From: Mesostigma viride
Taxonomy: Eukaryota; Streptophyta; Mesostigmatophyceae; Mesostigmatales; Mesostigmataceae
Direction of reading: 5' to 3'
Assembly (NCBI GenBank): GCA_009746045.1
Contig: RPFO01000102.1
Span: forward strand, 1,762,483 to 1,826,482
DNA length: 64,000 nt
Shown here: positions 1-53,785 of the stretch, one piece after another
How positions within the stretch are numbered: the stretch's first letter is position 1
Layout of the letters: every line of letters begins with the position of its first letter
The notes under the pieces: model-generated
What the model saw: the letters and a program-made list of their open reading frames with translations, nothing else
Told to the model about the DNA's origin: nothing
Database searches by the model: none
Program-made: the position numbers and the translations under genes

Positions 1-166
1 GTCTTAACTCGGTAGCTCCTACTAAACCTCACCTGGTTCCTACCTCGAATCCTGCCTCCAGGTTATGAGCGCCTCAAACTTGGCCTCGCCCGTTATCATA
101 TCCGTGTTTTGAACATCACCCCTGTACTTTTCTCCGAAGCTTCAGCAGGTTGAAAGGATTCCTCAC

Positions 167-8635
<8,469 letters not shown>

Positions 8636-9479: not shown

Positions 9480-11305
9480 TATGAACCAGTGGAGTGAAGC
9501 TACGCTAGCCCCATGGGGGTGAATGTGAGTAGGAGTACTACTCACTGGGTCACGCAATGGCGGAAGCACATCTACCAGGTGTGGCAAACTTGAGACATGA
9601 TTCTTGCATTTGCAACTGTGTGGTGTCTATTTCTTTTCAATTGAAACGAGCAGCATTCCCTTGGTCAGCACAGGCGGGGTTGCATTTGGTTGCAGCTCCA
9701 TTCCTCACCAGAGACCTTGTGCACCAGCATGCTTGGCCAGAAGAGTTTCTCGCAGGAATCGAGTACGTTCATGTACTAGTACAATGCTACGCATTGTGCA
9801 AGATCACAGCAGCCGCATTTCCACGACACATATATCAGAAGGTATGGTGTGACCTACCTTGATAAGGACAAGGGTCTGGCACACGTAATGCTGCCATCTA
9901 GCCCGCACGTCATCTGGCGAAGAAGGACCTTGGCCGCGGCTGCGTGGGGCGAGAGAATAAAGCAATGCATTTGCGGTGGGGCAATGAGCGCAGAGCATAT
10001 TTGGGTTTCATGGAAGATGTAGCGATAAAACGGCCTAAAGAAGGAGAATTTTCATTTGGCGATCATGATGACTGGTTAAGATGCCACATTGAGTCATCAG
10101 GCGAAGCGCAGTTCTGCAATACTATGACGCGCATACGCCACGTAGGGGGTCAGCGGCTGGCCTCGCTATTGATAACAGCTCGAGCGCCGCAACCGTGCCA
10201 CGGGAATTCCATACTTGCACTGCCTTCTTTACCTTCAACTTGTACTTGCAAGCTGTTGGTCGTCACGGTGAAATAGTGCAAGCTGAACGCGAGGCATTTC
10301 TTGAGAGGGAGATACATCGCGTCAGCAACGAGTTCCTGCATGTGGTGATCCTGCCGTTGATGACCTACAAGTCCTTTGGAATGTCAAACTGGAACCAAAA
10401 CATACCTCGGTTCGGTGGGGCTCGACGTCCCACGGCTCGAAAAACGCTTCTTAATCCAGCTCATGGCGTTGTAGGCATCCTAATGCCAACCATTTACCAC
10501 GTGAATGCAGGCATTGCTGACCATGGAAGCGGCAAATTTAGCGCGGGAAGAAGAAAATCTCATTCCAGCTAACGTCGCGAGTGCATTCACTGCATTGCCT
10601 TGCCGCCCATTGAAGCTTTCCCGAAACTAAAACTCGAGGAATTCACAGAGCTCCGGCTGTGGTTCCCCCGGGACTGCAGAGATTTCTGGGCTGTGGTTTT
10701 CCCGCGAGCTAGGCCACTCCTAGATCCATGGAACTGGCGCGAGCCTATTATTGTACGTACGGCTGACGGCAGCACAAGCTTATCTACTTGTCCACACTCC
10801 ACACACGGCCATCCCTCGCGTCTTTTGTATCGTTGAGTTTGGATTCCACCCCGGAGAAGTGACTCTGGATTGCACATGGCCCTTGCATCAGTATTTCTAT
10901 TACTGTAGTTACTAGCATTTGTAAAGGTATTGCATACACAATAATGTACTAACTACTAGGGCATCCTAGAATCATCTTTGCCTAGATCATCTTTGCCAGT
11001 TGATTGTGTCATAGCCTTGTGCCCATTTTCCAGATGCGAATTCTCGCGATCTGAGGGATGTGCCATGTTTTTTTTTCCCCGTGAATTGACGGAGGATGTT
11101 GGTGACCTCATCAACCTGCGGTTCGGCTACGCAGGTTTTTTGGGGTGATTTCTATTTCTTTTTCAATCTTGGACTTGCTGATTTATAGCTGGTAGGTAAT
11201 TTTCTAAAAAAAAAGCAAGTTCAAATGAAGAGTCATAGACTATGAGTTTTGCTGATAGTTGGGTACACATGCATGTCATTATTATAGACTGACCGGCGAG
11301 CTCTT
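9480..11305. other. Unassigned region left of the chromovirus
   Basis: Several moderate open frames on the plus strand (9557-9862, 9944-10276, 10195-10572, 10600-10836) have fairly protein-like composition but no family I recognise, and they are not joined by clear splice sites. They may be exons of an unknown gene or a decayed element. Its right end is the empty-site flank of the chromovirus (target CTCTT). Confidence 0.3.
11301..11305. other. Target-site duplication CTCTT, left copy
   Basis: CTCTT immediately precedes the left LTR and recurs at 22087-22091 immediately after the right LTR, as expected for Ty3-type integrase. Confidence 0.9.
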
Positions 11306-11876
11306 TGTTACGCCGCAAGCCTCGGCCGCCACCTCTACCTCTACCTGTCCTGATACTACCTAAACTAGTGAGGCTGCTTCTATATACACCCCTAGCGAAA
11401 GACGACCGAGACGAACCAGATCTCAATGCATTTACATATGTACTACTGTAATATGCCATAGACCATTTAATCAAACCCGTTTACTCCAGGAAAAGAGGAA
11501 GGAAACACAACTACACTGCCGTGACCCAAGCTAATATGTGTTAATTCATTTAACACACGCCGAGTGACCACACAAGGAGTGGAACGTGCATAAATGGTCA
11601 CCAACGGTCCAACAGGCTCGGGCCGACCTGGCCCTCGCCTGCAGAAACACAGAAACACAAGCAGGTGCACAGATGCACGCCTGTCCACTACATTCTACAA
11701 AAGGATAAGGACCACTAATATAGTACGCGGCGCGGCGCCCAAAGGCACCCACTATACCACAGTACTGTTACGGGGACAATCATGTCCAAACTAGAACTGC
11801 ACGTAACCTAGGAACAACCGAGGCCAAGGACCTAATTTACGTCCGTAACTACAACGAATTGTTACGCGACGTAACA
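11306..11876 (-). repeat. Chromovirus 3' LTR
   Basis: 571 bp, identical to 21516-22086 except at 11462, 11513 and 11660. In element orientation it opens with the hairpin TGTTACG-TCG-CGTAACA. Confidence 0.95.
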
Positions 11877-11890
11877 CCTCCCCCCCCACA
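11877..11890 (-). other. Chromovirus polypurine tract
   Basis: Minus strand reads TGTGGGGGGGGAGG directly against the 3' LTR; this is the expected primer site for plus-strand DNA synthesis. Confidence 0.85.
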
Positions 11891-12253
11891 AAAGGTAGGG
11901 AGCCCTCTCCCTACGCAGAGAGGAGGGAACCAAAGGGGTAGGAAAATAATCCTAACGCACCCAGCACATACCAACACAATCGATAGACCATCCCAGATAC
12001 AAAGCACCAATAGTTCACACGGTCTCCACCACCACGCCGGGTGGTGTAGGGTTAGCCAGCACCAAGCCTGGTGGTAGGTTCCCCTAACTGCCTGGAACGG
12101 AGTCCTGGCCGGGGGGGACGGCACTGGGCAGGACACACAGAGTAAACACATCAGCGCTAAGGACCAAGAACAGCCAACCAACTGGCCAGAATATGAGGGC
12201 GACTCTACATACCGGAGGGACAACACCCTCAGGTCGGGCCTAAGGCCCTCTAT

Positions 12254-14566
12254 CTAGTGGCCATCCGTCTGGTAAGTGCCACGAGAGGCCAGCAGGACCT
12301 CCAGGTAGGCCTGGTAGTGAGCCACATCCTCAACATTGTCATGCCTATCTACAGTGAGGAAAACATCGGCCCACACGCCGTCAGGAAAGAGGCCCAGGAA
12401 GGCCCAGTAATACCTATGCTGCGTGAGGACGACCTGGCCACGGGCCCAGTCCAGAAAGCCACAGGCAAAGAGGCGAAGGAAAGGCTCTACCGCGATCAGG
12501 CAAAGGGCCCGCAGGAGGAGGCGATGGTACCGAATCCGAGGGCGCATACCCGTCGGGAAGAACAGGTCCACCAGGGGCTCCACGTTGGACGGCCACAACC
12601 GGATGTGCCGAACCTCGCGGGAGCGCCACCGACGAACACACTGTCGCGACCCGAATGTCTCTAGGTAGTCGCTGGCACGAGGAGGAGGGTGACCGCGGGA
12701 GTCTAGACCCTGGCCCGGGATAGGCGCCGGGCGGCGGGCATCCCACTCAAGGATGGGCTGGAGGACCGTAGTGTACGCCGCACCCGGCACCGCAGGAAAC
12801 TCTACTGTAAGGGCATCCGAAGCCATAATGCCCAGAGGGGGAGGGTAAGCCCACTGAAACCCACCGTAGGTGTCCAAGTCGTTGTGGCGCCTCGCCCAGC
12901 GATACAGGACGCGCCGGACCAGGATCTCACCCTCGAACACCGGATCAGCTAAAATAACCATGTCGAACGGAGGCCGATCAGTCTCAATGGGTAGGCCACG
13001 ATCCCGGGGCGCCCGACACACCTGGGAGAACCCATAGGACATGGGAGAGATGGCAAGCTCAGCAGAGGCGCGCGGCAGGTCACACTGTCGGCAGGCGAGT
13101 GCGGACATACCATACCCCGGAATGGGCGTGTCACGCGACTCCGGCGTCGCGTGCACCACAGAAGGAGCCCTGTCCCGATCACCCTGGGACAACTCCCTGA
13201 GGGAATCGGCAGCGCGGGTGGCGCGAGGATCCTGACCGGTGGACCGAACAACCGCGGCCAAAGACCGCGAGGCCGAAGGAGGAGGGACCGGAGCAGGGGC
13301 TGACGCAGGGGCAGGAGCCGACACCGACGCAGGGGGCACTGGTAAAACAGGAGGTCGCGCCGGACCCGAAGCCAGAGAGGGCCGTGACGGACCCGCCAAC
13401 GACGCAGGCGCGCCGGTCTCCGTTGCCGGTGCACCCTCAGGCCACATGTTGAAAATGGGGCCCGTAGGGACAGGCAGTCCTGCATAAGATTGACTACCAT
13501 CCAGGCCCCAGTCAGGAACCGGAATCCTCTGCGGAGGACCACCCTCCCAAAGTCTGGGAAGCCCGCTAGTATCGCCAAAGAAACCCCGCGACGTCTGCGC
13601 CTGAGCGGGAGGAGGCTCGGAAGCAGCGACGGAGGGCGAGCTAACAGGGGCAGGAGACTCCCGCGTAGGCGCAGGTACAGCGGTAACAGGCGCAGAGGCA
13701 GCAGGAGTCGCAGGAGCCGCCGGAACCACAGCGACCGCGGGCGCAGGCGGGGGCGCGGGCGAAGCCGTAGTCGCCGGGGCGACAGAAGGGGTAGGGGGCG
13801 CGGATCCAGCCGGCGTGGCCGGGACCTGCGCCTGGGCCGCAAGGAAGGCCCCAAACGCCGTGGTCAAAGACTGGATCTGAGCCTGCATAGCCGAGACCGT
13901 CGCCGAAAGAGGATCAGGCAAACCCGAAGGGGTAGGCTCCACTGCGACATCCCGGGTCGACCGAGGGGACGACGGGACCGGAGAGGGAGGAACAGACGCC
14001 GAGGAGGCGGACGCAGCGCTCGAGGCAGAATAATCTGGAGTATAATGTACCTCGGCTGGGGCGCCCGAAGGGGTAGGACCACTAACCGCTAGTCCCGCCG
14101 ACTGATCAGCTATCTCCATGAACTCTACGGCCCGTAAAAGGTCGCAGGGGTTCTCGTCTACCTCAGCATCACCCTCAGCTGGAAGCCACGGGAACACCTC
14201 CCGTAGGCAGGTACGGCCCACAGGAGTGGAGAGGTAGGAGAACACACGGCAACACCGGAGAACCGCATCTATCTGCCCCAAGGCGGGACAGCTGGAACCA
14301 CACCCCAACAAACAGTGTCCGGCATCATCGAACCCGTGCAGGACAAGCTGGTGCGGCTCATCAGGGGAAGGACCATACCACGTGACCCCGAAGAGGGCCG
14401 CCCTGACTAAGCCCGCATGTTGGGCCTGAAGGGCCGGCTGCACCACGCCACCCGGGTAACTAGATCGCGACACCCAGCGGCCCGGAAGGGCCTCGAAATA
14501 CAGCTCAGGGTCCGGTGGGGGCGGGGACGGCAGCGAGCTCTCAGCCGGAGGGGTAGGCTCTGACAT
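12254..14566 (-). CDS. Chromovirus extra 3' ORF, unknown function
   Basis: An open frame of up to 812 codons begins at 14692, but the first Met after the integrase stop is at 14566 (MSEPTPPAESS), giving 770 residues. The N-terminal 170 residues look folded. Residues of about 190-470 are a Pro/Ala/Ser-rich low-complexity spacer. The last 250 are rich in Arg, Trp, Tyr and Leu (for example YRWARRHNDLDTYGGF and FLDWARGQVVLTQHRYYW). No signal peptide or clear fusion/transmembrane layout typical of an envelope protein is visible. The segment is clearly more GC-rich than pol next to it. I do not recognise the family. It could be a captured host sequence or a lineage-specific accessory protein. Confidence 0.6.
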   Translation of the reverse strand: MSEPTPPAESSLPSPPPPDPELYFEALPGRWVSRSSYPGGVVQPALQAQHAGLVRAALFGVTWYGPSPDEPHQLVLHGFDDAGHCLLGCGSSCPALGQIDAVLRCCRVFSYLSTPVGRTCLREVFPWLPAEGDAEVDENPCDLLRAVEFMEIADQSAGLAVSGPTPSGAPAEVHYTPDYSASSAASASSASVPPSPVPSSPRSTRDVAVEPTPSGLPDPLSATVSAMQAQIQSLTTAFGAFLAAQAQVPATPAGSAPPTPSVAPATTASPAPPPAPAVAVVPAAPATPAASAPVTAVPAPTRESPAPVSSPSVAASEPPPAQAQTSRGFFGDTSGLPRLWEGGPPQRIPVPDWGLDGSQSYAGLPVPTGPIFNMWPEGAPATETGAPASLAGPSRPSLASGPARPPVLPVPPASVSAPAPASAPAPVPPPSASRSLAAVVRSTGQDPRATRAADSLRELSQGDRDRAPSVVHATPESRDTPIPGYGMSALACRQCDLPRASAELAISPMSYGFSQVCRAPRDRGLPIETDRPPFDMVILADPVFEGEILVRRVLYRWARRHNDLDTYGGFQWAYPPPLGIMASDALTVEFPAVPGAAYTTVLQPILEWDARRPAPIPGQGLDSRGHPPPRASDYLETFGSRQCVRRWRSREVRHIRLWPSNVEPLVDLFFPTGMRPRIRYHRLLLRALCLIAVEPFLRLFACGFLDWARGQVVLTQHRYYWAFLGLFPDGVWADVFLTVDRHDNVEDVAHYQAYLEVLLASRGTYQTDGH

Positions 14567-14642
14567 GACGGCTGCGGAGGGGAGGGGACAACCAACCATC
14601 CGTCGACAGCAGACATAACATAAGAGAGGAGAAGGTCTACAA

Positions 14643-16349
14643 CTAGAGCTTATGCAGGGTTTTATACTCCTGCAGCAGGCGACTACACCCATCTAGCTCA
14701 CTCTCAGTATACCAGACCTTATCTACCTCACTACGAGCATACATCCACTTCACCTTATACTGGCGCTGGGTACCGCGGCCTTTTTTGATATCTCTATGGG
14801 CCACGATACCCTCTACCTCATCCTCTACCTCACCAGTATCCGGGTTATGCTCTAAAGGGGCAGGGGCCAATTCTCTACCAGCGAACGTGCTCTGATGATA
14901 GAGCTTCAGCTGGCTTCTATGAAAGGTGCGAGAGTGGGTCTGCCAAGAGGTAGGAATATCTATCTCATACAGAAAATTACCTACTCTAGACAACACACGG
15001 AAAGGTCCTAAGAAGGCGGGCCTAAGTTTCACTTTCAGTTCAGCTTCGAACTTATGAGCGAAGCGGCCAACACGGGGGCCTTCTACTAAGACTAAATCTC
15101 CTATTTCTATCTCAGGTGCTCTTCTATCTAATGAGGCACGCAACCTAGCAAGGTATTTGGCCTGCGCCCTATGGTACCCTGCAATAGCGTTGTCGTGTGC
15201 ATTCTTCATCTTATCTAATAACGCCTGCACACCTTCTACAGTATCCCGGGACACATCATCCTTGTCCCTTAAAGGACTAGCTAAAAGAGAGGTAGGGGTA
15301 AGAGGTTGTCTACCAGTATCTAGGAAGAAGGGCGTATAACCATGCGCAGCCTGAGGGCAATTGTTAAGGGAAAACTCTACCAAACATAGGTAATCCTCCC
15401 AATCACTCCCAGAGCCATTCACATAGTGACGCAGAGCTTCTTCCACTACCCTATTCAAACGTTCTACTAAATGAGACGAGGAGGAGTGGTAGGCAGTACC
15501 GAAGGTGACCTTGGTACCGATAGCAGCGAAGAACTGCTGCCAAAAATCAGAAGTGAATAACTTATCCTTATCACTAATAAACTGCCTACTCAAACCATGA
15601 TATCTATATACGTTATTAAGGTATAGGCGTGCGCAATCGCGTGCGGTGAGTTCTAAGGGACACGGCACGAGATGACACATACGAGTAAAACGATCTACAA
15701 AAACAAGGATCTGGGCGTTACCTCTATCATTCTTCCTAAAAGGTCCTACAAAATCCATCATAATGGAGTCCCACGGCATGATGGGATCAGGTAAGGTCCT
15801 AGGCTCTGCTATCTGTCCTACATTGTTGGGTTTCATCTCCTGGCAAGATTGACAGGTTCTAACATACTCATCTACATCCTTTAAAAGGGAAGGCCAGTAG
15901 TAAGAGCGGGCTACTAGGTCCCGTACCCGTTTACCACCCTGGTGAGCAGCTAAGTCATGCAACTCAAAGAGCAAGGAGGAGCGACAGATAGGAGGGACAT
16001 ACAGGCGCCATTGAGGGGGAGAATCTGCTATCTGCACATATAAAAATCCACCTACAAATTTACAAGGGTGCTTGCCTAATTGTTGGGGATGGGCAGCAAT
16101 GGCAGCTAATGCTTCCGGCTCAGTGGCCGTAAATCTACTAATAAGACGTTCGAGATCAGAGGTAGGCATCGCTACAGAGGTATCCAGAACAGGTTTAAAG
16201 AGATCTCCTACCGCCTTGCCAAAGAGAAGGGGAGGTCCTAGAGGGACTATGTGTTCATAAGACTTTCCTGACCTAGTCGCTATATGGCTAAGCGGTATAG
16301 AAATTTTATTTTTCCCCTCCCCCCCCCGAGACCACAGGAAGGGCCTCAC
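14643..16349 (-). CDS. Chromovirus integrase with C-terminal chromodomain
   Basis: 568 codons. The zinc-binding part has the H-H-C-C spacing (ELHDLAAHQ then TCQSCQ). The catalytic core has Asp in MMDFVGPF, Asp in FISDKDKLF and Glu in SHLVERLNR, the D,D-35-E triad for strand transfer. The last 65 residues (EVEGIVAHRDIKKGRG, QYKVKWMY, KVWYTESEL) match a chromodomain, which in chromoviruses targets insertion to modified histones. The frame is +1 relative to RT, the switch falling at a G9 run (16317-16325), and the first codons overlap the end of the RT frame. Probably translated as one polyprotein with RT. Confidence 0.9.
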   Translation of the reverse strand: MRPFLWSRGGEGKNKISIPLSHIATRSGKSYEHIVPLGPPLLFGKAVGDLFKPVLDTSVAMPTSDLERLISRFTATEPEALAAIAAHPQQLGKHPCKFVGGFLYVQIADSPPQWRLYVPPICRSSLLFELHDLAAHQGGKRVRDLVARSYYWPSLLKDVDEYVRTCQSCQEMKPNNVGQIAEPRTLPDPIMPWDSIMMDFVGPFRKNDRGNAQILVFVDRFTRMCHLVPCPLELTARDCARLYLNNVYRYHGLSRQFISDKDKLFTSDFWQQFFAAIGTKVTFGTAYHSSSSHLVERLNRVVEEALRHYVNGSGSDWEDYLCLVEFSLNNCPQAAHGYTPFFLDTGRQPLTPTSLLASPLRDKDDVSRDTVEGVQALLDKMKNAHDNAIAGYHRAQAKYLARLRASLDRRAPEIEIGDLVLVEGPRVGRFAHKFEAELKVKLRPAFLGPFRVLSRVGNFLYEIDIPTSWQTHSRTFHRSQLKLYHQSTFAGRELAPAPLEHNPDTGEVEDEVEGIVAHRDIKKGRGTQRQYKVKWMYARSEVDKVWYTESELDGCSRLLQEYKTLHKL

Positions 16350-18111
16350 ACGGGAGAGAGAGTCCTACGTGAGAAAGGAGATCAGGCATGCGAACAGCTG
16401 TATGAAAGAGGTAGGCATAGGATTCATCATCAGGTAGTTCACCATACGGGGTTACACCCATAGTAGTAGGAACTAGAGTAGTATTGAGAACATCAAGGTC
16501 CTCGAAAAAGGAGTAATCTGCACGACGAGAGAGTGCATCTGGTACTATGTTATCTACACCCTTAACATACTGAAGTTTAAAAGGGGAGAACTGTGCTAAA
16601 AACTCCATCCAGCGCGCTTGACGAGGGGTAAGGTTGGGTTGTGAGAGAAGATGGGTAAGAGGGCGGTGATCTGTCTGGATAACTAATCTATAAGGATCAA
16701 TCTCACAGGGTTCATTCAGACAAACATCAAATTGAGCACCTTTAAGAAAGTGCTGCCACGCGTGGCAACAGTACACCACAGCTAATAGTTCTTGCTGGTG
16801 GACGGGATAGTTACGCTCCGCAGGAAGCATTGTCCTAGAGATATACTCGATTGGCTGTAAGCCCTGACCCTGATCCTGGAGAAGGACGCCCCCTATAGCT
16901 ACCTTGCTAGCATCTGTGGCTACAACAAAGGGTTTAGTAGTATCCGGTAGGATGAGTACAGGAGGGGAGAGGAGTAGGGATTTTAGACACTGAAAAGCCG
17001 ACTGACATTCACTACTCCAAACAAAGGGGATATCCTTCTTTAATAGATGATTAATAGGAGCTGCTATAGTTGCGAAACGCGGGATAAAACGCCTATAGTA
17101 AGAAGCAATTCCTAGAAAACTACGTACACCTTTAACGTCGGTAGGGGTAGGCCATTCCTGAATTGACTTAGTCTTATCCGGGTCGGTAGCGACCCCGGCA
17201 TCTGATAGAACGTGCCCTAAGAATGGGACACTTCTACCAGAGCGAACTTTAGCACGGCGCGCCCATAAAGAATTTTCAGCCATGATTTCTAATACTTTCT
17301 TTAAATCACGTAGGTGCGTTTCAAAATCAGGAGAATAAATAAGGATATCATCTAAGTAAGCTTGAGCACAAGAACGGTCATGCTCAGATAAAGAAACAGA
17401 GGAGAAGGAAGGATCCTTTAAATCAGAGGACACTTGAGGAAGGTGGGAATTTCCCATAACAGGTCTAAGCACTTCATTCATTAACATTTGGAAAGAGGCA
17501 GGAGAGTTACAGAGTCCCATAGCCGCTACTCTAAACTGGTAATGCCCAAAAGGGGTAGCAAAGGCGGTTTTGTGGCAATCCTCAGGAGCTATACGTAGTT
17601 GCCAAAAACCATCCGCACAATCTAGTACTGTGAAACAGGTAGAACCTTTAACCTTATTAAATATATCATCAATACGAGGTAGAGGGTATTTAGACTTCAC
17701 AGTAATATCGTTTAGCTTCCTATAATCAGTAACTAGGCGAAACTTGCCATTTGGTTTAGGAACTAACAGGACACCAGCGGAGTAGGGGGAGTTACTAGGC
17801 TCTATCAATCCTGCTTCTAATAGTGATACTAAAATCTGTTTTAGTTCCTTTAATTCTGTAGGGCCCATTCTATACATCGGAGAGTGCGTAGGAACTGCAC
17901 CGTCCTTGATAACTACACGGTGTAAAACAGAACGAGGAGGAGGATAAGAAGGAGTCTTTTCTTCAAATACTTTTGAGGAATCTATCACAGCCATGTATCT
18001 TACTATTTCATTTTCAGTAAATCCCACTCCTATTGTATCCACTGTATTTACATCTATATCCACACTATTATTAGTGATAGGTATCTCTTGTACTTCTAAC
18101 TGAAGGAACAT
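16306..18111 (-). CDS. Chromovirus reverse transcriptase and RNase H
   Basis: 601 codons. RT motifs in order: KFRLVTDYRKLN, the catalytic LDCADGFWQ, FRVAAMGLCNSPASFQ and YLDDILIYS. RNase H follows with VVATDASKVAIGGVL, ELLAVVYCCHAW and the TDHRPLTHLL block. About 30 residues rich in Ser/Asp are inserted just before YLDD relative to ordinary Ty3 RTs. The frame is -1 relative to the protease frame, with a short overlap at 18096-18111. Confidence 0.9.
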   Translation of the reverse strand: MFLQLEVQEIPITNNSVDIDVNTVDTIGVGFTENEIVRYMAVIDSSKVFEEKTPSYPPPRSVLHRVVIKDGAVPTHSPMYRMGPTELKELKQILVSLLEAGLIEPSNSPYSAGVLLVPKPNGKFRLVTDYRKLNDITVKSKYPLPRIDDIFNKVKGSTCFTVLDCADGFWQLRIAPEDCHKTAFATPFGHYQFRVAAMGLCNSPASFQMLMNEVLRPVMGNSHLPQVSSDLKDPSFSSVSLSEHDRSCAQAYLDDILIYSPDFETHLRDLKKVLEIMAENSLWARRAKVRSGRSVPFLGHVLSDAGVATDPDKTKSIQEWPTPTDVKGVRSFLGIASYYRRFIPRFATIAAPINHLLKKDIPFVWSSECQSAFQCLKSLLLSPPVLILPDTTKPFVVATDASKVAIGGVLLQDQGQGLQPIEYISRTMLPAERNYPVHQQELLAVVYCCHAWQHFLKGAQFDVCLNEPCEIDPYRLVIQTDHRPLTHLLSQPNLTPRQARWMEFLAQFSPFKLQYVKGVDNIVPDALSRRADYSFFEDLDVLNTTLVPTTMGVTPYGELPDDESYAYLFHTAVRMPDLLSHVGLSLPCEALPVVSGGGGEK

Positions 18112-18923
18112 ACATAATAAGTATCCATATTCTTTAGTTCAGAACGTAACTCGTCATTGGACATTAATACTTCAGGTATAGGTCTAACAGGAGGATCAAC
18201 AGGTGTAGGAGGAGTAATATCTACCAAGGATAAATTTTCTAATCTATAATGACGTTCTGGTACCCAGTAGGAGCTATCTGGAAACCAAATGACCATAGTA
18301 TCATAATTAATAGTGATTTTATTATCCTGATGCCAATCTAATCCTAGTAATACATCAGCTGTAGTGATAGGGCCTATAGTGGCCGTCAGGTTGACCGTAC
18401 GTCCTTGTATGACCAGGGGAAGGGACACCGTACCCGGGGAATGACTGGTGCGACCGTCAGCATAATGGACAGTGACAGTTTTTGTGTGAGGGGTAGGGAC
18501 TAGTCCTAAACGCCTAACTAGGGCCTCGCTCACAAAGGAGCTAGCCGCACCGCTATCCACTAACACAGAGACATTCAAGAGTTCATCAGCATGCAGGAAG
18601 GGGTCTACAACAGTATGAGGGACGGTTAAGCCACCATTCAAGAACATAAGAGGACGCACACGTAGTGGTAGGGATGATTCAGCTCCTACAGAGGTTATAA
18701 AAACAGGCAAGCAAAAATTATTATCTGGGGTACTATCTAAGGACCTGTCCAGGTTACCCCCGGCTGACAGGCCTACTGTTCCCCCTCCCCCCCAAATCCA
18801 TAGGAACGAACCCCGAAGAAGACCCTGGCGGAAAAGCCACTGCTGGAGGGTCACGAGGGATTGAAGAGGGTGCGGGAGCCTGATTATCATAGGGGAACCC
18901 TGGGGATCCTGTCTGCACAGCAT
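18096..18923 (-). CDS. Chromovirus aspartic protease region
   Basis: The frame overlaps the end of gag. The retropepsin motif VLVDSGAASSFV is at about residue 120 and the matching C-terminal ADVLLGLDWH at about 190. It would cleave the Gag-Pol polyprotein. It is +1 to gag, the switch falling at a G7-A-G5 purine run (18780-18793), so it is probably expressed by frameshifting. An artefactual homopolymer error is the alternative. Confidence 0.85.
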   Translation of the reverse strand: MLCRQDPQGSPMIIRLPHPLQSLVTLQQWLFRQGLLRGSFLWIWGGGGTVGLSAGGNLDRSLDSTPDNNFCLPVFITSVGAESSLPLRVRPLMFLNGGLTVPHTVVDPFLHADELLNVSVLVDSGAASSFVSEALVRRLGLVPTPHTKTVTVHYADGRTSHSPGTVSLPLVIQGRTVNLTATIGPITTADVLLGLDWHQDNKITINYDTMVIWFPDSSYWVPERHYRLENLSLVDITPPTPVDPPVRPIPEVLMSNDELRSELKNMDTYYVCSFS

Positions 18924-20502
18924 TCAGCCTACTAGGGGTAGCTGAAGGAATGCGTCCTGAAGTGGGACGAATAGGAGCACGCTGAGGGGTACGAGGAGGG
19001 CGAGCGTCGGGATGAGGGGGAGCACCCGAAAGGAACTTGGGGCACTCACGTTTAAGATGACCTACTTCCTTACAATGATAGCAGGTAATATGAGAGACAT
19101 CCAGAGCTGAAAGGTCAGTCACACAGATATCTAATTCTTCTACATAGGAGTTCTCCTCCTCAGGGGTAAGGCTAATATTATTAATACGGGAACGGGTAGG
19201 AAGAGAAGGTGTGGAGAAGAAATCTGCTACTCGTAAAAGATGCTGGCGCACATGCTTGAGGGGCAGGTCAGTAAAACGGTAGGCAGAGAACTGGCGCTTG
19301 ACTTCACGCAATAAGGGTCTACTGAGGCCCTGAAGGAAGCGAGCACGTACTTCTGCACCCGACAAATCCCTAATTCGTACCATCTGAGCATCAAACTCTT
19401 TCATATATTCTTTGAAGGACTTGGTACCCTGCTGCAAGGTGCCAAAGGATAATCTATCCTGCCAATCTGCATCGGGAGGGACTAAATGGTTCTCTAAACG
19501 CTTGAACAATTCTGCTACAGAGTTTGGGTAGGCATGAGAGGCAAGAGACTCACACTGGATGAGGTTAGCAAGTTCAGGAGTAATGCAGGTAGTAAGATAA
19601 TGAGGAACTAGTACAGCATCAGAGAGGCGCCACCTATTGTGGTTCTGCCAGGACTCTGTGTTCTGGGTGAGCAACATAATGAAGGTGAAAAACTGTTGAG
19701 GGGTAGACTTGACATCCAGCTTAGGAAGGTTGGCAAAGAGGGGAAGAGCAGGAGGCTTAGGGGGATTAGAAGAATCAGTTTTTCCCATAGGGCCACTATC
19801 TTCCACTGCTACATAAGCGGGATAGAAGGAAGGGATAGGAAAAGTCTTGGGTAGGGGTCTAGAGGGAGCCACCGTTTCAGGATGGTGCCCATAGGAGAAG
19901 GGGACAGTATATTGCTCACGAAGAGAGGAATAGGCAAAATGATCATAATTCCTATCATCTAGGGGCATGGTACTGAAATCATTATTAACTTCTAAATCAG
20001 CCACACGGGTAGGAACCTGGGCAGCCTCATAGGCCGTCTCAGGGTAGGACCAGGAAGCAGGTGGGTAAAAGGGAACTGCACTAGGGCGCCCAGAAGGGCC
20101 GACAGGGGCCGAGGTACGACCCGTGTTAATAGCAGGCATTGAAGGCACAGGGTGGGAAGGAGGCCTAGGAGCATTGTTAGTGTGTGAGGACCTGCTGGAG
20201 GGGTGAGCCAAGGTTGCAGAAGGGGCAGGGGCCTGGTTCACAACGAAAGAAGGTTCCTCACTAAATCTGACTTGGGAAATACGTTGTTCATAGGTAGGTG
20301 GGGTAATTGAGGGACGACGGCGACCACCAGCAACAGGAGAAGGAGGTGAGGTACGCAGAATACCTTGAGGAGTGAGATGGTGTACCGTTTCCAAGGAGTC
20401 CCGTCGGTTACCACGAGTATTGTTATTGTTAATGTTATTAGTAGTAGTATTATTATTATTATTGGTAGGTATAGGCGACATATCTCCACCCACTGGATCC
20501 AT
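18754..20502 (-). CDS. Chromovirus Gag
   Basis: 582 codons. The N-terminus is Asn-rich then Pro/Ser-rich. The middle third contains the retrotransposon-gag core (SFKEYMKEFDAQMVRIRDLS, then RARFLQGL). A CCHC knuckle (CYHCKEVGHLKREC) sits near residue 475, followed by a Pro-rich tail. It forms the particle and binds RNA. Confidence 0.9.
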   Translation of the reverse strand: MDPVGGDMSPIPTNNNNNTTTNNINNNNTRGNRRDSLETVHHLTPQGILRTSPPSPVAGGRRRPSITPPTYEQRISQVRFSEEPSFVVNQAPAPSATLAHPSSRSSHTNNAPRPPSHPVPSMPAINTGRTSAPVGPSGRPSAVPFYPPASWSYPETAYEAAQVPTRVADLEVNNDFSTMPLDDRNYDHFAYSSLREQYTVPFSYGHHPETVAPSRPLPKTFPIPSFYPAYVAVEDSGPMGKTDSSNPPKPPALPLFANLPKLDVKSTPQQFFTFIMLLTQNTESWQNHNRWRLSDAVLVPHYLTTCITPELANLIQCESLASHAYPNSVAELFKRLENHLVPPDADWQDRLSFGTLQQGTKSFKEYMKEFDAQMVRIRDLSGAEVRARFLQGLSRPLLREVKRQFSAYRFTDLPLKHVRQHLLRVADFFSTPSLPTRSRINNISLTPEEENSYVEELDICVTDLSALDVSHITCYHCKEVGHLKRECPKFLSGAPPHPDARPPRTPQRAPIRPTSGRIPSATPSRLNAVQTGSPGFPYDNQAPAPSSIPRDPPAVAFPPGSSSGFVPMDLGGRGNSRPVSRG

Positions 20503-20595
20503 CTTTAATTACGTAAAGGAATAGGAATCAAAAGAAGAAAGCAACAAAAGAAAAAGGAAAAACCTTGAAGGTCTGCAGCAGGAACAAAATTAAAA

Positions 20596-20988
20596 TCAAT
20601 CCTTTTTAACAACAGTAATGGATAGGGAACCAAACTCCAAAGTGAGAGGAGTATCTGAAGCAGATGCAGATGCAGCCCGTTTAGGGGGAGAAGAAGGAGG
20701 GGTAGCAAAGACTAGAGCTTCTACTGGAGGGCGACCATGAGGAATAGGGCGTACATGCAGGCCTAAATCTGTTTGGCTATGATCTATAAGGAACTGCTGA
20801 GCTTCTTCAAAGGACATAAATTTCTTATACCTAATTACGTTATATTCACGATTCTGAACGATCTTCCTAGCGTCGGACCAAGAAAGGAAAATGGAGGACC
20901 ATTGAGGCGTAATCACTACGTAATATTTAGCTAGACTATTATCGCTAGAAGAATGGGAAGGAGCAGTAAAAGATCGCCGTTGGCTCAT
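20596..20988 (-). CDS. Chromovirus ORF0: RNase H1 N-terminal / Cauli_VI-type domain protein
   Basis: 130 codons upstream of gag and separated from it by about 90 bp. Residues 22-70 (AKYYVVITPQWSSIFLSW, then VIRYKKFMSFEEAQQFL) match the small RNA-DNA hybrid-binding fold found at the N-terminus of eukaryotic RNase H1 and in caulimovirus P6-type translation factors. The conserved aromatic YYVV, the SW pair and the KKF-x-S-x-EEA-x-x-F-L ending are all present. The tail is Pro/Ser-rich. By analogy it could bind hybrid or double-stranded RNA during reverse transcription, or act in reinitiation on the polycistronic RNA. Neither role is shown by the sequence. Confidence 0.75.
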   Translation of the reverse strand: MSQRRSFTAPSHSSSDNSLAKYYVVITPQWSSIFLSWSDARKIVQNREYNVIRYKKFMSFEEAQQFLIDHSQTDLGLHVRPIPHGRPPVEALVFATPPSSPPKRAASASASDTPLTLEFGSLSITVVKKD

Positions 20989-21502
20989 GGTAACGCACCT
21001 GGTAGGTCTTGAGCAGTCAAATGAGGAGAACGAGGAGAAGGCGACTTATCTCGGGTGTCTGAAACCGAACCAGATTGACGACGCACGTAGGGACGATGTT
21101 TCCAGCGCCAGGTGGTCGTAAGTATCCGGTTTCAAGAATTCTGCGTCCGGCGAAGGGTCGTCTAAATACGAAGCAGGCACGATGCAGAAAAAGGGTAATC
21201 TACGAGACGCTAGCCGTCTCTCTATCGTCGAACCAAAACCAGCAACTGTCTACGGCAGTAAACCATCTTTCTAAGGAAACAAGACGAGGAGCAGGAGCTA
21301 TATACGAAAGGATTTTCCGCTTCGAGCAGGTCTAACGTCTAGGCAGGGCGTGTCCTGAATCAGGCAGCACTATCCTCCTAGCTTGACGGCGACCCGCCCA
21401 TTACCTGTCAAGTACGTGTCGTCTTCTTTTTCCCAGCCGCGGAAGGGTTGATTCAATGACGTATGTTGCAAAGGATCGTCGTCTCGCTCTCTATCTAAAC
21501 TA
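20989..21502 (-). other. Chromovirus 5' leader
   Basis: About 500 bp between PBS and ORF0, the expected place of packaging signals. No long frame on the coding strand and no clear repeat. Confidence 0.5.
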
Positions 21503-21514
21503 CCTCCGAGTCCA
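21503..21514 (-). other. Chromovirus primer-binding site
   Basis: One base after the 5' LTR the minus strand reads TGGACTCGGAGG, complementary to a tRNA ending CCTCCGAGTCCA. The same 12 bases follow the 5' LTR of the LARD element at 37659, which supports a real shared primer tRNA. I cannot name the tRNA. Confidence 0.8.
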
Positions 21515-21515
21515 T

Positions 21516-22086
21516 TGTTACGCCGCAAGCCTCGGCCGCCACCTCTACCTCTACCTGTCCTGATACTACCTAAACTAGTGAGGCTGCTTCTATATACACC
21601 CCTAGCGAAAGACGACCGAGACGAACCAGATCTCAATGCATTTACATATGTACTACTGTAATATGCCATAGGCCATTTAATCAAACCCGTTTACTCCAGG
21701 AAAAGAGGAAGGAAACACAACTAAACTGCCGTGACCCAAGCTAATATGTGTTAATTCATTTAACACACGCCGAGTGACCACACAAGGAGTGGAACGTGCA
21801 TAAATGGTCACCAACGGTCCAACAGGCTCGGGCCGACCTGGCCCTCGCCTGCAGAAACACAGAAACACAGGCAGGTGCACAGATGCACGCCTGTCCACTA
21901 CATTCTACAAAAGGATAAGGACCACTAATATAGTACGCGGCGCGGCGCCCAAAGGCACCCACTATACCACAGTACTGTTACGGGGACAATCATGTCCAAA
22001 CTAGAACTGCACGTAACCTAGGAACAACCGAGGCCAAGGACCTAATTTACGTCCGTAACTACAACGAATTGTTACGCGACGTAACA
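21516..22086 (-). repeat. Chromovirus 5' LTR
   Basis: 571 bp, direct repeat of 11306-11876 in the same orientation, TGTTA...TAACA ends, followed by the right CTCTT duplication. Confidence 0.95.
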
Positions 22087-22091
22087 CTCTT

Positions 22092-26443: not shown

Positions 26444-27559
26444 ATGGCTGAGGGACGCCGTAGCAAGGGTCCAGCCAGTGGGAATAATAATGGGGGTGCT
26501 GGTAGTGGAACCGCTCACGTAGATGACGTGGGGCTTACCGGAGAGATTACCAACCTTCCTCACAATAATAATAATGCACAAGCTATTCATGGCTTTGATC
26601 TTACCACACAGGGTCTTTTAATTGTCAATCAGTTGCAGCCTGTAACCTCAGACTCCAAGCCTAAGCAGGCTGAAGAGTTTGTGGAGGGATTGGAAGGGTT
26701 CCCTAGCTTGTACGGTGGTACAAATTACTATCAAATCTGGATAGGCAGTAGCACTTTTGGCAAGTGTACTGACCAGATTAAGGACCTAACCAGGGAGTGC
26801 AAAAAGGCCAATAAGGCCTGGGCACTGTACGTGGCTGAGCTGAAGGAGCTGCTGGAGGATCAGAGGAAGAAAGTGGGCATCCATTGGCAGGACAAGTACC
26901 AAGGGTGGGAGGTCAAGGGGGACCTGATCCAGAACTTTCTCAACTATTGTAAGATGGTTGAGGAGGGCAGGGCTCACGGCTTTAATGTCGCTGATAACAT
27001 AGCCCTAACCAACTGGCTCAAGGTTTCTGGGCTGGATAAGGCGACACGTGGCTCCTTAAAAGTCATGTGTGCCCCACACTCTACCCTGAAGGCCTACAAG
27101 GTCATCATTAAACAAGCTCTCGAGGCAGAGGAGCTGTTTGAGGGTGGAGTGCCAGCAGTGAAGGCTACCCAGGCAGGCGGGCGTACCCAGGGTGGCTCCA
27201 AGACGTCTGAGGCTGACCGAAGCCAAGGAGGGCGTAGGGGCAACCATCACAAGCGCAAGGGAGATCATTCACCTGATTCTGACAGGAGGTCACACTCCAA
27301 GTCGGTGTTCAGGCGGGTGGGTGGTCAGCCCAAGCAGGGCAACGCGTCTGACAATGGGGGCAGTGGCCAGGGCAAGTCCAAGATACAATGCTACCTGTGC
27401 AAGGGGTGGGGGCACATCAAGAAGGAGTGTCCCAGCTTCAAGAAGTCCCAGGGCCAGGGCAGCAACAAGAATAACAACAACAACAAGAAGAACAACAACA
27501 AGTCCCAGGCAGGCCAGCCTTCAAAGGGCAGTCAGCAAGAAGACAACAAGGAGCAGTGA
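26444..27559 (+). CDS. Copia-1 Gag
   Basis: 371 codons starting MAEGRRSKGPASGN. Helical middle (for example WALYVAELKELLEDQRKK) and one CCHC knuckle, CYLCKGWGHIKKEC, near residue 313, followed by a Gln/Asn/Lys-rich tail. It packages the RNA. It ends 142 bp before the pol frame. Confidence 0.85.
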   Translation: MAEGRRSKGPASGNNNGGAGSGTAHVDDVGLTGEITNLPHNNNNAQAIHGFDLTTQGLLIVNQLQPVTSDSKPKQAEEFVEGLEGFPSLYGGTNYYQIWIGSSTFGKCTDQIKDLTRECKKANKAWALYVAELKELLEDQRKKVGIHWQDKYQGWEVKGDLIQNFLNYCKMVEEGRAHGFNVADNIALTNWLKVSGLDKATRGSLKVMCAPHSTLKAYKVIIKQALEAEELFEGGVPAVKATQAGGRTQGGSKTSEADRSQGGRRGNHHKRKGDHSPDSDRRSHSKSVFRRVGGQPKQGNASDNGGSGQGKSKIQCYLCKGWGHIKKECPSFKKSQGQGSNKNNNNNKKNNNKSQAGQPSKGSQQEDNKEQ

Positions 27560-27700
27560 CTGTCTGAGGCAACCCCTACACACCTTAATTCACCCAAGGG
27601 GGAGGCCAGGTGCTCCAATGCAGATTTTATATCTGGGCAACAAGAGGGTGATCTCCAGGTTCAGTGTGGCCCCAGGTCACCTGGAGAGGTACAGGTTCCT

Positions 27701-30700
27701 ATGAAGACGTCCTTGACAGCTGATGCAGCTGTAAGTATGTCTGACCCTATGCATCCTCGTGCTGGGCACGAGGGTGGACCTCTCATTTTGAGAGAAACCA
27801 ATGTACAACCACAGAGGGGTGTGAAGGCCTCTGGTGGTATGCATGTGGTCCCTGCTGGCGGTCCAGGTGTTGGGCATGAGCAGGGTGACTCAGGCTCTGA
27901 GTCAGAACAGGATGGAAGTCAGCATGGTGATGCTGGACAACCTGACAGCACAGTCCTGACTGTGCCAGGGACTGCTTCCTCTGTGTACCAGGAGTTGGGT
28001 GCCCGAATCCACAACATGTTTGGGCATGCCACTTCTCTGTCAAACAACTTTGCCTTCCGTATGGGCAGGGCACCCCTTCTTAAGGCGTGTCAGCAAGCTG
28101 CCTCACGGTGTAAGTGCCAGTTGTCCTCCAACAAGCCCAGGAAATCACATGCCAAAGCTCTACCTCAGAGCATTGGTGATCTGCAGTGTGATATCCAACA
28201 CATCAGGGGCATGCAACTGTTGGTGTGCGTGGACAGGTACACGAAATACAAGGTGCTGGAGCATTTACCTTCTATGAAGAACAGGTACTTGCTGGCTGCC
28301 CTGCAGAATGTAAGAGCCAAGTTTCCTACCACAAGGATCCAGGTGGACATGCAGTTTCAGCATCTCAAGGGTGATCCTACCCTTCCTGAGTTGCTGGTTA
28401 CACCTAGGGAGGCTCATGGGCAGCAGGGTGCTATCGAGAGGGCAATCCAGGAGGTCAAGAAATTGATCATCTCTGAAGACTGGGTACCCTTGTCTGCACC
28501 TGCACTTGTCAGGAGTGCATGGCTGAGGAACGTGGAGCAGCAGCTGAACAGCAGGGTTAACTTCTACTATGATGGAGTTGCTGTCAGCCCAATGGGTCTA
28601 TATCATGGCCTGTGCCCACCACATGTGCTGGAGGGCTGGAAACATGCTGCACATGTCACCTTTGCCAAGCTGAGGGAGAAGGACCGGGGTTGGAAGATGC
28701 TGGAGCCACAAGTGGGTCAGAAGGTCCTAGCTTGGAAGGAACCTAGCCTTTATGGCAAACGTGGTAGCTGGAGTCCTGGGGTGGTTACCCAGGTTGATGA
28801 AGCTAGCCACGCATGCTTGGTCAGCATGGAGGACGAACCAAAGCATGTACACCGGCTGAGTTGGTCATATGTCAAGCCTAACCTGATGAATGAGGGCAGT
28901 CAGGCACAAGGCTCACAGGATCTGCAGGATTTTCAGGTCCCAGGTGACATCACTGACGCAACGACCACATCTGTTGCAGGGGAATCTGTCAGCCCTGGCC
29001 AGGTTGCAGAGGTACTTGTTGAACAGGCTGCAAGGTCAACAGCTGGGGAGTCAACTGTCAAGCCCAAGGCACTAACCAAGCCCAGGGGGACAAGTTTGGC
29101 TGGATTGATTGGGGCTCTACAAAGGGCCAAGAAGCAGCCCAAGGTAGCCAAGCTCAGGTGGCATGGCAATCTGGGGCTGGACACTGCCTTAGAGGTAGAC
29201 ACTAATTCTCAGGTCTCCATTATTGGGACCAGGGCTGCAGCAGGGTACAGCATGTCTGAACCCAGCTATCAGTTTGTGTCTGACTTCAGTGGCGGGGTAC
29301 ACGTGAAGGTACTGGGTGAGGTATTCATTCCTATCCTTGGACAGGACACTGCTTTTTGTGTCTTGGAGGGCTATCAAGGACCTGCTCTTCTGGGGCAGAA
29401 TTTCCTATGCCAGGATGGGGTAGTGATCACGTCCTCTCTCCTGACTAAGGAAGGGGCTGGTCAGGTCCCACTGATTAATTTCAGGACCACTCACCTATCA
29501 CGTGCAGTAACCAGGACGGTTAAGCGTGTGCAAGTGTGCCAGGGGCAGGAGCCCTTGGTTGATGACCTCATACTGCCAGCTGCTAGTCATCCAAGCAGTT
29601 TGGGCATTGGTCCTCACTCACTTGCTGGACACAGCCCTATCAACTACCAAGGCCTGGTGAAGCTCATGTCCTCTCCCATTATGTGTCCCCAGGTCACACT
29701 GGGTCTGATTAAATCTGGGGAGGACTGGATCTCCAAGAAATGCGTGGAACCTGTCAATGACCTGCCTCCTGCACGACGTCTACTCAAGCTCAAGTTTGTC
29801 ATCAAGATGAAGGAGGTGGACGGGGTCAAGGTACCACATGTCAGGCCAGTGCTGAATGAGTTCAAGGGTACTGGTGAGTGCACTGCTGAGGAGTTGTATA
29901 CCCCTGGCATGCTGCATGATACTTGGAGGCTGCTGCTGTGTGTCTTTCTAGGCCTTCTCAACAAGGGCTTGGACTATGGCTCAGTGGTGATAGACTTCAA
30001 GAGGGCATTTCTGGAGGGTGATGCAGATGTGGCACAGGAAAAGTGGGAGGGCAAGACGCCTTTCTATGTTAGGGTGCCTGCTGTATGGAAAAGGGACATC
30101 CACACGGAGTTCCTTAAAATCCTCAAGGGCCTGGAGGGCCTGAGGTCAAGTCCAATAATCTGGAGGGAGACTCTCAACCGTTTCCTGAAGGAGCATTGCA
30201 ACTTGAAGGTCTCTCCTGTAGACCCCTGTCTGTTTCTGGGGCAATGGGAAGGCCTGCCAGTGTATGCTTCGCTGCACGGGGATGACCTACATCTGATAGC
30301 TCCCACGTCGTGGCTTAAGGAGCTGATCTCCATCATTAAGTCCAAGTTTCCTCTGGGTAGGGAGCAATGGCAGGTGGAGAATGAGCCTCTGCTGTTTGTG
30401 GGCATGGAGGCCACACTGGTGAAGAAGGGAGGGGAGTGGCGTATGCTGCTGGTGGGGGGCAATGACTATCAAGAGACCCTCATTAGCAAGCTTCCTCCAA
30501 CCATCACACAGGCACTGTGTCCCATGGTGAGGGGCATGGTTGCTTGGGTGGCAGGCATTTCCAGGCCAGACCTTATGGTCATAGCCAGGTTGCCTGATGA
30601 CATGCTGGTGGAGCTAGGGTCTGCCAAGGTGGCTGATCAGGTCAGGGCTTCATCTGGCATTCTGTTGTCTGCAGTGGATTTATCACAACCCATTTGCATG

Positions 30701-31186
30701 GAGCTGTATGTGGATAGCTCAATGGACAGCAGGCAGGTCTCCAAGGTCAGGGGCAGGGCTGCAGGGCTCTTTGTGCTCAGACAGGAAGGCCTGGGGAGTT
30801 TGGTGAGCTGGTTTAGTCGCCTGCACAAACGGGTGGCTGTCAGCAGTGATGTGGCAGAATGCAGGGCTATTTGTGAAGGCATTCACACAAGCCTTTATCT
30901 GAAGGAGTTGCTTCATCAGATGACTTCTAACACTCCTTGGCCACTTCAGGTTACCACTCTTCTAAAAACAGACTCCATGGGGATGGTGCAGTTTGTGCAC
31001 AGGCAGATGGCCAGAAGTAGGGACTTGGATTATCTCCTTCTTAAGGAGTTGTCCTCCTTGGCCAATATTGAGCATATCCCTGGGGTTGACAATCCTGCTG
31101 ATGCTTTGACCAAGCTAGTGCAGAAGGCAGCAGTGCAATACAAGGTTCTTCAGTCTCTGATGGACCCATCTCAGCAAGCTGTCTAA
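27701..31186 (+). CDS. Copia-1 Pol: integrase, protease-like, RT, RNase H
   Basis: 1161 codons. Residues 100-140 hold a weak zinc site (IHNMFGH, CQQAASRCKC). The integrase triad is probably D in LQCDIQHI, D in IQVDMQFQ and E in GAIERAIQ (about 162, 215, 244). At about 490-580 a retropepsin-like unit (LEVDTNSQVSIIG, ALLGQNFL) lies after integrase, with Asn in place of the usual Gly. RT occupies 665-870 (VVIDFKRAFLEGD, LKGLEGLRSSPIIW); its metal-binding motif is HGDD instead of YVDD. RNase H ends the protein (YVDSSMDSR, SSDVAECRAICEG, VDNPADALTK). The coding sequence is poor in CpG. Confidence 0.88.
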   Translation: MKTSLTADAAVSMSDPMHPRAGHEGGPLILRETNVQPQRGVKASGGMHVVPAGGPGVGHEQGDSGSESEQDGSQHGDAGQPDSTVLTVPGTASSVYQELGARIHNMFGHATSLSNNFAFRMGRAPLLKACQQAASRCKCQLSSNKPRKSHAKALPQSIGDLQCDIQHIRGMQLLVCVDRYTKYKVLEHLPSMKNRYLLAALQNVRAKFPTTRIQVDMQFQHLKGDPTLPELLVTPREAHGQQGAIERAIQEVKKLIISEDWVPLSAPALVRSAWLRNVEQQLNSRVNFYYDGVAVSPMGLYHGLCPPHVLEGWKHAAHVTFAKLREKDRGWKMLEPQVGQKVLAWKEPSLYGKRGSWSPGVVTQVDEASHACLVSMEDEPKHVHRLSWSYVKPNLMNEGSQAQGSQDLQDFQVPGDITDATTTSVAGESVSPGQVAEVLVEQAARSTAGESTVKPKALTKPRGTSLAGLIGALQRAKKQPKVAKLRWHGNLGLDTALEVDTNSQVSIIGTRAAAGYSMSEPSYQFVSDFSGGVHVKVLGEVFIPILGQDTAFCVLEGYQGPALLGQNFLCQDGVVITSSLLTKEGAGQVPLINFRTTHLSRAVTRTVKRVQVCQGQEPLVDDLILPAASHPSSLGIGPHSLAGHSPINYQGLVKLMSSPIMCPQVTLGLIKSGEDWISKKCVEPVNDLPPARRLLKLKFVIKMKEVDGVKVPHVRPVLNEFKGTGECTAEELYTPGMLHDTWRLLLCVFLGLLNKGLDYGSVVIDFKRAFLEGDADVAQEKWEGKTPFYVRVPAVWKRDIHTEFLKILKGLEGLRSSPIIWRETLNRFLKEHCNLKVSPVDPCLFLGQWEGLPVYASLHGDDLHLIAPTSWLKELISIIKSKFPLGREQWQVENEPLLFVGMEATLVKKGGEWRMLLVGGNDYQETLISKLPPTITQALCPMVRGMVAWVAGISRPDLMVIARLPDDMLVELGSAKVADQVRASSGILLSAVDLSQPICMELYVDSSMDSRQVSKVRGRAAGLFVLRQEGLGSLVSWFSRLHKRVAVSSDVAECRAICEGIHTSLYLKELLHQMTSNTPWPLQVTTLLKTDSMGMVQFVHRQMARSRDLDYLLLKELSSLANIEHIPGVDNPADALTKLVQKAAVQYKVLQSLMDPSQQAV

Positions 31187-47828: not shown

Positions 47829-48176
47829 GGCCAGTCGGCGTGGCGCTTGGATTCCTGACTTGACCCGGTGTGGTGACGTGCATCCCAACCCTGGGCCTGA
47901 GGGGGCGCGACGCCCTCGGGACTTGGCACTTTTGGAAGGCACAGTCAACCCTGTGTCTACCTTGCCAGCGTACAGGCGTGCGGCGGCTGTCTACGTGGCG
48001 TGGGCGCCACCTGGCCCTGTCGACCCAGCTGACGCGGAAGCCATTTTCTGTGAGTGGATTTCTGCTGTCTACCATGCCAGGGGCGGGCGGGGGCGTACCT
48101 TATGCCAGCATACCAAGGCCTGTCTCCACCTGTACTACCCCGACATTGTTCGGAATTGGGTACTGGCGGACCGCCT
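47680..48176 (+). pseudogene. PAT tyrosine recombinase, N-terminal part (split), with 2A-like motif
   Basis: The frame overlaps the end of RNase H and continues. CGDVHPNPGP at 47869-47898 resembles a 2A ribosome-skipping peptide. An N-terminal recombinase domain follows (AYRRAAAVYVAWAPPG, HTKACLHLYYPDIVRNW). It is cut after VLADRL by the LTR composite. With the GCCT duplication collapsed, codons run VLADRL-LAGWQRLV without a break. Confidence 0.8.
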
Positions 48177-49455: not shown

Positions 49456-49626
49456 GCTGTCGCGTCTGCGTGCCACAATCTCCGGCGCCACCATGGCGGC
49501 TGGCCACTCAGCTTAATTTGGTAAAACCCAAATGAGCTGAGCTGATGTGCCTGCCTTAACTGCATGCCCTGTGGGGTGGGCGAGGACCTGTCCCATGATT
49601 CCCCCCCTCGCTGGCGACCGGCCCCA

Positions 49627-49890
49627 TCACGAAGACAGCGATCGTACCAAGACAAGGGCAGCGGTGACCGCAGTCAAGCTGCGGGAGGTAAACTGCGCAG
49701 CGGTGCACACTGGACAAAACCAATCCCCCTCCGGAATGCTGGTGACCACGGGCTGCAAGCACTGCATGTGCCAACCACAGTTACACTGATCACACAATAA
49801 CATGGACTCCGCCTGATCGACCCGGTGACAAACCTGACACTGGGCGTCCTTGACTCGGCGAGATGTGTGCGGTTGGAGGTCGTGGACCAA
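49627..49890 (-). pseudogene. PHD finger at the C-terminus of the gypsy integrase (frame-shifted)
   Basis: Minus strand: CQVC, LLCDQC, GWHMQC, WFCPVC in the exact C4HC3 order and spacing of a PHD finger, preceded by NLVHDLQPH, which resembles the end of integrase C-terminal domains. It follows the integrase in another frame; the break lies near 49940. PHD fingers read histone H3 tails, so it may have replaced a chromodomain as a targeting module. Confidence 0.8.
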
Positions 49891-49929
49891 ATTGGGCAGT
49901 GAGCAGGGACTGAGATTGCTGAGTTGTCT

Positions 49930-53589: not shown

Positions 53590-53785
53590 CGTCCTCCTGT
53601 TTTTATCTCTCGTCTTTTAGCTATCAACTGACCTCACCCTTGTGTGGGAGGTCAGGGGGGAAATGGTTTAACTAACCCGAGGGTGAACCTGGGTTGGGAC
53701 AAAGTACCCCCATAGCTAGGTAGTTTAAGTTTTCTTTTTTGCATGTCCTACGTATTTTTCGGCTGTTAGCCATGTAAGGAGATGT
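53590..53785 (+). other. PAT element 3' non-coding part
   Basis: About 200 bp between recombinase and B1; nothing recognised. Confidence 0.6.

Follow-up and report, generated by a model that had tools for sequence, protein, structure and literature searches.

LTR retrotransposons usually need just gag and pol. Among the 15 extra domains found in Gypsy elements of 121 angiosperm genomes, those named in that survey do not include PF01693, the profile of the RNase H1 hybrid-binding domain (HBD). The AlkB ORF of orchid Gypsy elements, described there, is, like the ORF presented here, an additional ORF acting on RNA that is fixed in one lineage of Gypsy elements, with a different domain (PMC9289625). 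The oomycete Ty3 elements Chronos and Archon likewise gained an RNase-H-related module, and Chronos captured a chromodomain too; according to their description the gain was a ribonuclease H domain, whereas the ORF studied here (ORF0) is a separate ORF with the binding domain only (PMC5348765). PF01693 is also present in a mobile element of Pleurotus, in the helitron gene capE, which, unlike ORF0, belongs to a DNA transposon and is a captured sequence in one long copy, its description mentioning neither a conserved place nor selection (PMC4289320). Among reverse-transcribing elements, caulimoviruses encode an HBD in P6/TAV, a protein of 520 aa with other domains (PMC7102451) that, like ORF0, is separate from gag and pol. 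In CaMV P6 the domain with the HBD motif serves binding of TOR, on which reinitiation depends, and the 2018 review that reports this states that TAV-like reinitiation activator proteins were unknown outside the Caulimoviridae (PMC5902531). In the human HBD, the substitutions W43A and KK59/60AA are reported to compromise hybrid binding (PMC10639055) and were used as a non-binding mutant (PMC6868509). Among the papers listed in our searches of open-licence PMC literature, none reported a Ty3 element with an HBD, in agreement with a preliminary description of this locus, which knew of none.

The window, that is, the whole 64-kb stretch of Mesostigma viride DNA analysed here, contains a Ty3 element that spans positions 22086 to 11306 and lies, with all its features, on the minus strand. 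It has the marks of a Ty3 chromovirus: TG..CA LTRs, a target site duplication, the order gag-PR-RT-RNaseH-IN and a chromodomain at the end of the integrase. The two 571-bp LTRs (5' LTR, TGTTACG...CGTAACA, 21516..22086; 3' LTR, 11306..11876) differ by 3 mismatches and are flanked by the duplication AAGAG, identified by sequence comparison (22087..22091 on the 5' side, 11301..11305 on the 3' side). A putative primer-binding-site region beginning TGGACTCGGAGG (21496..21515) directly follows the 5' LTR, and the 527-nt leader (20989..21515), with three short upstream ORFs of 6, 7 and 14 codons, precedes ORF0 (20596..20988, 130 aa). Pfam profiles identified gag (Retrotrans_gag and a CCHC zinc knuckle, 18754..20502), a retroviral-type aspartic protease (18096..18923), reverse transcriptase with RNase H (16306..18111) and an integrase with chromodomain (14643..16349); ORF3 (12254..14692, 812 aa) lies downstream of pol, and a putative polypurine tract region (TGTGGGGGGGGAGG, 11877..11896) precedes the 3' LTR. 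Reverse transcriptase and integrase are out of frame in the window copy and in L043, and share one frame in 10 of the 11 other junction-spanning copies (L040, L042, L044–L048, L050, L051 and L053); gag and protease show other frame changes, which differ between copies. The window copy, initially described as complete and young, is thus young, given its LTRs, and not obviously complete, given this frame break. ORF3 gave no match in Pfam, PHROG or PDB, and its NCBIfam match was far below the cut-off. Its first half is proline/alanine-rich and its C-terminal part better conserved; pieces of it are 61–94% identical in the diverged copy L050 (dN/dS 0.23, one copy measured), and a distant match to the C-terminal part (40% over 37 aa) was found near a broken copy of a second family (family 2, see below) in L023. 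Elsewhere in the window, a Copia-like element (26444-31186, plus strand) has a gag-like CCHC ORF (sub-cut-off) and a pol ORF with RVT_2 just under the cut-off. DIRS-like pieces on the plus strand (45900-53620) include a sub-cut-off tyrosine recombinase match at 52886-53620, and a second Ty3 RNaseH-IN fragment (49674-51821) lies between them on the minus strand. Short tandem repeats with several open frames on both strands (SFVR/ERTN/ASQP repeats) occupy about 1.7 kb at 2791-4509.

PF01693 matched residues 21–66 of ORF0 with an E-value of 5.7e-8 and 33.3 bits, against a curated cut-off of 21 bits, which confirmed the initial assignment of an RNase H1 N-terminal domain to a separate ORF ahead of gag. 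The best solved match of the ORF0 structure model was the human RNase H1 HBD, and the model has the 3bsu-like fold (a sheet of three strands and two helices), with the predicted order beta-beta-alpha-beta-alpha. Beyond this core ORF0 has a tail of low model confidence, and the motif LTLEFGSLSI, common to the families described below, lies near the C-terminus (residues 115-124). ORF0 thus agrees with the RNase H1 HBD (PF01693; PDB 3bsu, 1qhk) in profile, in predicted secondary-structure order and in the positions of human W43, K59 and K60, which in an alignment correspond to W37, K55 and K56 of the window's family (family 1). It differs from RNase H1 in that the G-R-x-x-G turn is not conserved in family-1 ORF0 and in that no RNase H catalytic domain, the hallmark of the RNase H1 enzyme, was matched in ORF0 by Pfam profiles at E up to 1. 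An RNase H1-type HBD on a separate small protein without an RNase H match points to binding, not cutting, of hybrid or dsRNA, and judging from its sequence ORF0 probably binds one or the other.

A protein search of the genome (440 Mb, 2243 contigs) found ORF0 open in all 150 scored matches (1500 candidates), with residues 1-130 covered at 98–100% and no stop. Among eight open diverged variants of family 1, dN/dS was 0.06–0.24 in 28 pairs with dS up to 0.73; three of these variants (L028, L030 and L032) have an altered C-terminal end, some have one-residue indels, and the set does not include L001–L008 (protein identical to the window's), L033, L035 and L037 (truncated) or L026, L027 and L029. 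When the window copy was compared with five diverged copies, gag had dN/dS values of 0.15–0.44, and ORF0 was lower than gag in four of them (0.09 versus 0.44, 0.18 versus 0.24, 0.20 versus 0.35 and 0.10 versus 0.16); L049 showed the opposite (0.24 for ORF0, 0.15 for gag). Reverse transcriptase, at 0.02–0.07 (window versus four copies), was below ORF0. The near-identical copy L044, with 0–3 changes per class, was excluded from the gag and reverse transcriptase ranges. The only protein match to ORF0 (one of 32 candidates) was a 73-aa piece, 99% identical, in the EukProt set of Alexandrium andersonii (P0001), which is probably a contamination of that set; its presence there suggests that ORF0 may be transcribed somewhere. 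A dinoflagellate host, to which this match might point, was rejected: the dinoflagellate spliced leader pattern had 0 exact matches, and a plastid contig of the genome has psbA twice, on opposite strands, next to a penicillin-binding transpeptidase gene (ftsI-like) and a PSII-family gene read as psbC. According to PMC4194372, Nephroselmis olivacea was the sole reported case of chloroplast ftsI and ftsW until they were seen in some Prasinococcales, which lack the inverted repeat; taken by themselves, these plastid genes would suggest a Nephroselmis-like green alga.

Three further families with HBD ORFs were found, which makes four in one genome; the genome search with PF01693 scored 150 of 1764 candidates, and with the family-2 ORF0 as query there were 75 matches among the 150 candidates scored out of 625. 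Family 2 (L012–L017, L021, L024, L039, L040 and L042) has an ORF0 of 229 aa with two HBDs that is intact in L012 only (74.3 bits over two stretches), and its gag starts 805–819 nt downstream of the ORF0 ATG in six of eight loci examined; identity to the window element is 31–39% in gag, 46–47% in protease (main pieces), 69% in reverse transcriptase and 53–60% in integrase. Nested in the family-2 copy of L039 are a tyrosine-recombinase element, whose ORF of 1084 aa is open (153-3407, plus strand), and a DDE_Tnp_1_7 (piggyBac-type) transposase (4783-7062, minus strand). In family 3 (L059 and L060) an ORF0 of 141 aa (PF01693 26.6 and 34.1 bits, above the cut-off) lies directly 5' of a gag with a CCHC knuckle, whose Retrotrans_gag matches are sub-cut-off (22.6 and 15.5 versus 24.1) and which is 30% identical to the window gag in a two-sequence comparison (E 3e-48). 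In family 4 (L061 and L062) the two ORF0s, 115 and 113 aa long, score 31.9 and 28.4 bits, above the cut-off; no gag was recognised in the short stretches examined. Besides family 1, the position ahead of gag was therefore seen in families 2 and 3. Among the matches listed for the family-2 ORF0, 29 were L059-like, 9 L060-like and 5 family-4-like by open-frame length and query range, counts that are a reading of the match table, four loci having been read.

Two-sequence comparisons linked the ORF0s of families 3 and 4 (E 1e-21) and of families 1 and 3 (4.5e-10); support in the HBD tree was weak. The hydrophobic motif near the C-terminus was present in five of five representatives, covering all four families, and in 0–1 of 20000 shuffled tails, for a pattern written after the alignment was seen. 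The representatives of families 2–4 keep the tryptophan and the first lysine and have glycine in place of the second, and L013 and L014 of family 2 lack the first lysine too. For ORF0, the single pair compared in family 3 gave a dN/dS of 0.18 (dS 1.09) and the single pair in family 4 a dN/dS of 0.08 (dS 0.72), so that purifying selection was seen in all three families measured (1, 3 and 4). The profile, the predicted structure, the sister copies and dN/dS, which the preliminary description had proposed as checks, agree, and ORF0 is almost certainly a real, selected ORF with an RNase H1-type HBD. The genome also encodes the host's own RNase H1 with an HBD (L011) and other HBD genes. The host-like gene L009 (contig C1413, 497154-500282) has two HBDs followed by a weak, sub-cut-off match to the start of a Pif1-like helicase, and L018 and L019 are single-HBD reading frames whose domains are 71% identical to each other; the sequence around these domains is rich in proline and serine, and neither frame matched the window gag.

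The borders of ORF0 resemble splice sites. A putative 5'-splice-site-like sequence, CAG/GTGCGT (20993..21001, minus strand), has its GT 10 nt 5' of the ORF0 ATG; AG/GTGCGT or AG/GTGAGT was found 10–14 nt 5' of this ATG in 21 of 21 aligned copies, with the leader further upstream drifting, and the site is the best donor match of the 125 GTs between LTR and gag start. Between ORF0 and gag lies a putative 3'-splice-site-like sequence (TTTTGTTCCTGCTGCAG, 20573..20589, minus strand), and an AG after a pyrimidine-rich stretch follows the last ORF0 codon by 24–25 nt in nine of nine copies examined. In families 3 and 4, AGAG/GTA was seen by eye 55–59 nt 5' of the ORF0 start in the three loci examined, and family 2 has no such donor-like site adjoining the ORF0 ATG. 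These sequence patterns suggest an optional intron that would contain ORF0. A spliced cDNA copy was not found in the genome: the joined-junction pattern had no match even when as many as 3 mismatches were allowed, and the donor followed by a non-G base gave 0 exact matches, compared with 102 for the control with G. This absence may be compatible with splicing if spliced RNA escapes reverse transcription. In the window copy 93 nt separate the ORF0 stop from the gag ATG downstream. Among 22 sequences (L029, without a start, left out; 6 of 22 without a gag start), the 16 copies with both starts found had gaps of 59–124 nt and did not conserve the frame of ORF0 relative to gag; with gap and frame both varying, ORF0 is not a part of Gag made by read-through. 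Four further ATGs lie between the ORF0 and gag ATGs, making simple leaky scanning to gag unlikely.

We propose that ORF0 is an accessory binder of hybrid or dsRNA of this Ty3 lineage that acts in trans on replication intermediates, and give this explanation as a whole a probability of roughly 0.5. Modelling of the Ty3 RNase H suggests, according to PMC5371799, that several hybrid contacts of cellular and retroviral RNases H are absent from it, which makes a helper that grips the hybrid in trans plausible; ORF0 may provide the grip missing from the Pol RNase H. ORF0 would be translated from unspliced RNA, and translation of gag would use RNA from which splicing has removed ORF0, or would bypass ORF0. 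Acting in trans, the protein would coat RNA:DNA hybrid or structured dsRNA of the replication intermediates, and its C-terminal motif might be its point of contact with Gag, with Pol or with a host factor. That its site of action is replication intermediates, rather than host defence or translation, we hold only tentatively, at slightly less than even odds.

Small separate ORFs commonly encode silencing suppressors, and ORF0 could be one, hiding dsRNA of the element from Dicer/Argonaute with its C-terminal motif as a docking site. The HBD motif of CaMV P6 is reported to bind hybrids and dsRNA in vitro, but the same account finds this domain dispensable for silencing suppression in CaMV (PMC5902531). 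Since the host genome has Piwi-domain (Argonaute-like) sequence (20 matches on six contigs, 17 over the cut-off), such a role is conceivable, and we regard it as unlikely. We consider it very improbable that ORF0 is a P6/TAV-like translation factor that would allow ribosomes to reinitiate at gag and ORF3 on a single long RNA. The CaMV TOR-binding domain, required for reinitiation, includes the HBD motif (PMC5902531), the four intervening ATGs argue against leaky scanning, and BFVD searches matched P6/TAV of three plant pararetroviruses at E 0.11–0.48. However, ORF0 has one domain and 130 aa against the 520 of P6 (PMC7102451), occupies the 5' end of a Ty3 element that integrates, and resembles P6 over only about 45 residues, in the domain that P6 has in common with RNase H1; in the profile search of ORF0, PF01693 alone was matched. 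The splice-like sites would offer an alternative, simpler route to gag, and pol does not resemble a series of separate cistrons, because reverse transcriptase and integrase share a frame in all the junction-spanning copies but the window's and L043. A polycistronic pol was therefore dropped as the main reading, and the initial suggestion that ORF0 aids polycistronic translation is weakly supported. Nor was a special link to caulimoviruses, raised at the same time, demonstrated, since the sole part common with P6 also occurs in the cellular RNase H1 and other genes of this genome. That ORF0 is a captured host RNase H1 exon or a chance ORF, hitch-hiking without function, is barely credible: the host has HBD genes from which to capture, and a Helitron in Pleurotus is described as having taken up an HBD (PMC4289320), but selection largely refutes this reading, dN/dS in three families being far below 1 for dS values that reach 1.1. 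ORF0 is also retained 5' of gag in families whose gag is only about 30% identical to the window's, and family-1 ORF0 shares only 16% identity with the domain of the host RNase H1.

A far-reaching version, which we think quite improbable, would make ORF0 a P6-like hybrid/dsRNA-binding regulator, an old gene kept by vertical descent in a whole Ty3 lineage of green algae and switched on by retention of the intron that contains it. If this were true, ORF0 would be the first non-catalytic HBD regulator of such a kind in LTR elements that integrate; it might be related to the P6 domain of caulimoviruses, or be a model of where that domain came from. ORF0 also bears on the origin of the P6 domain. 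The strong conservation of a separate ORF0 in four families suggests that these elements are limited by some aspect of holding RNA:DNA hybrid or dsRNA. ORF0 offers a small protein with which this limitation can be tested.
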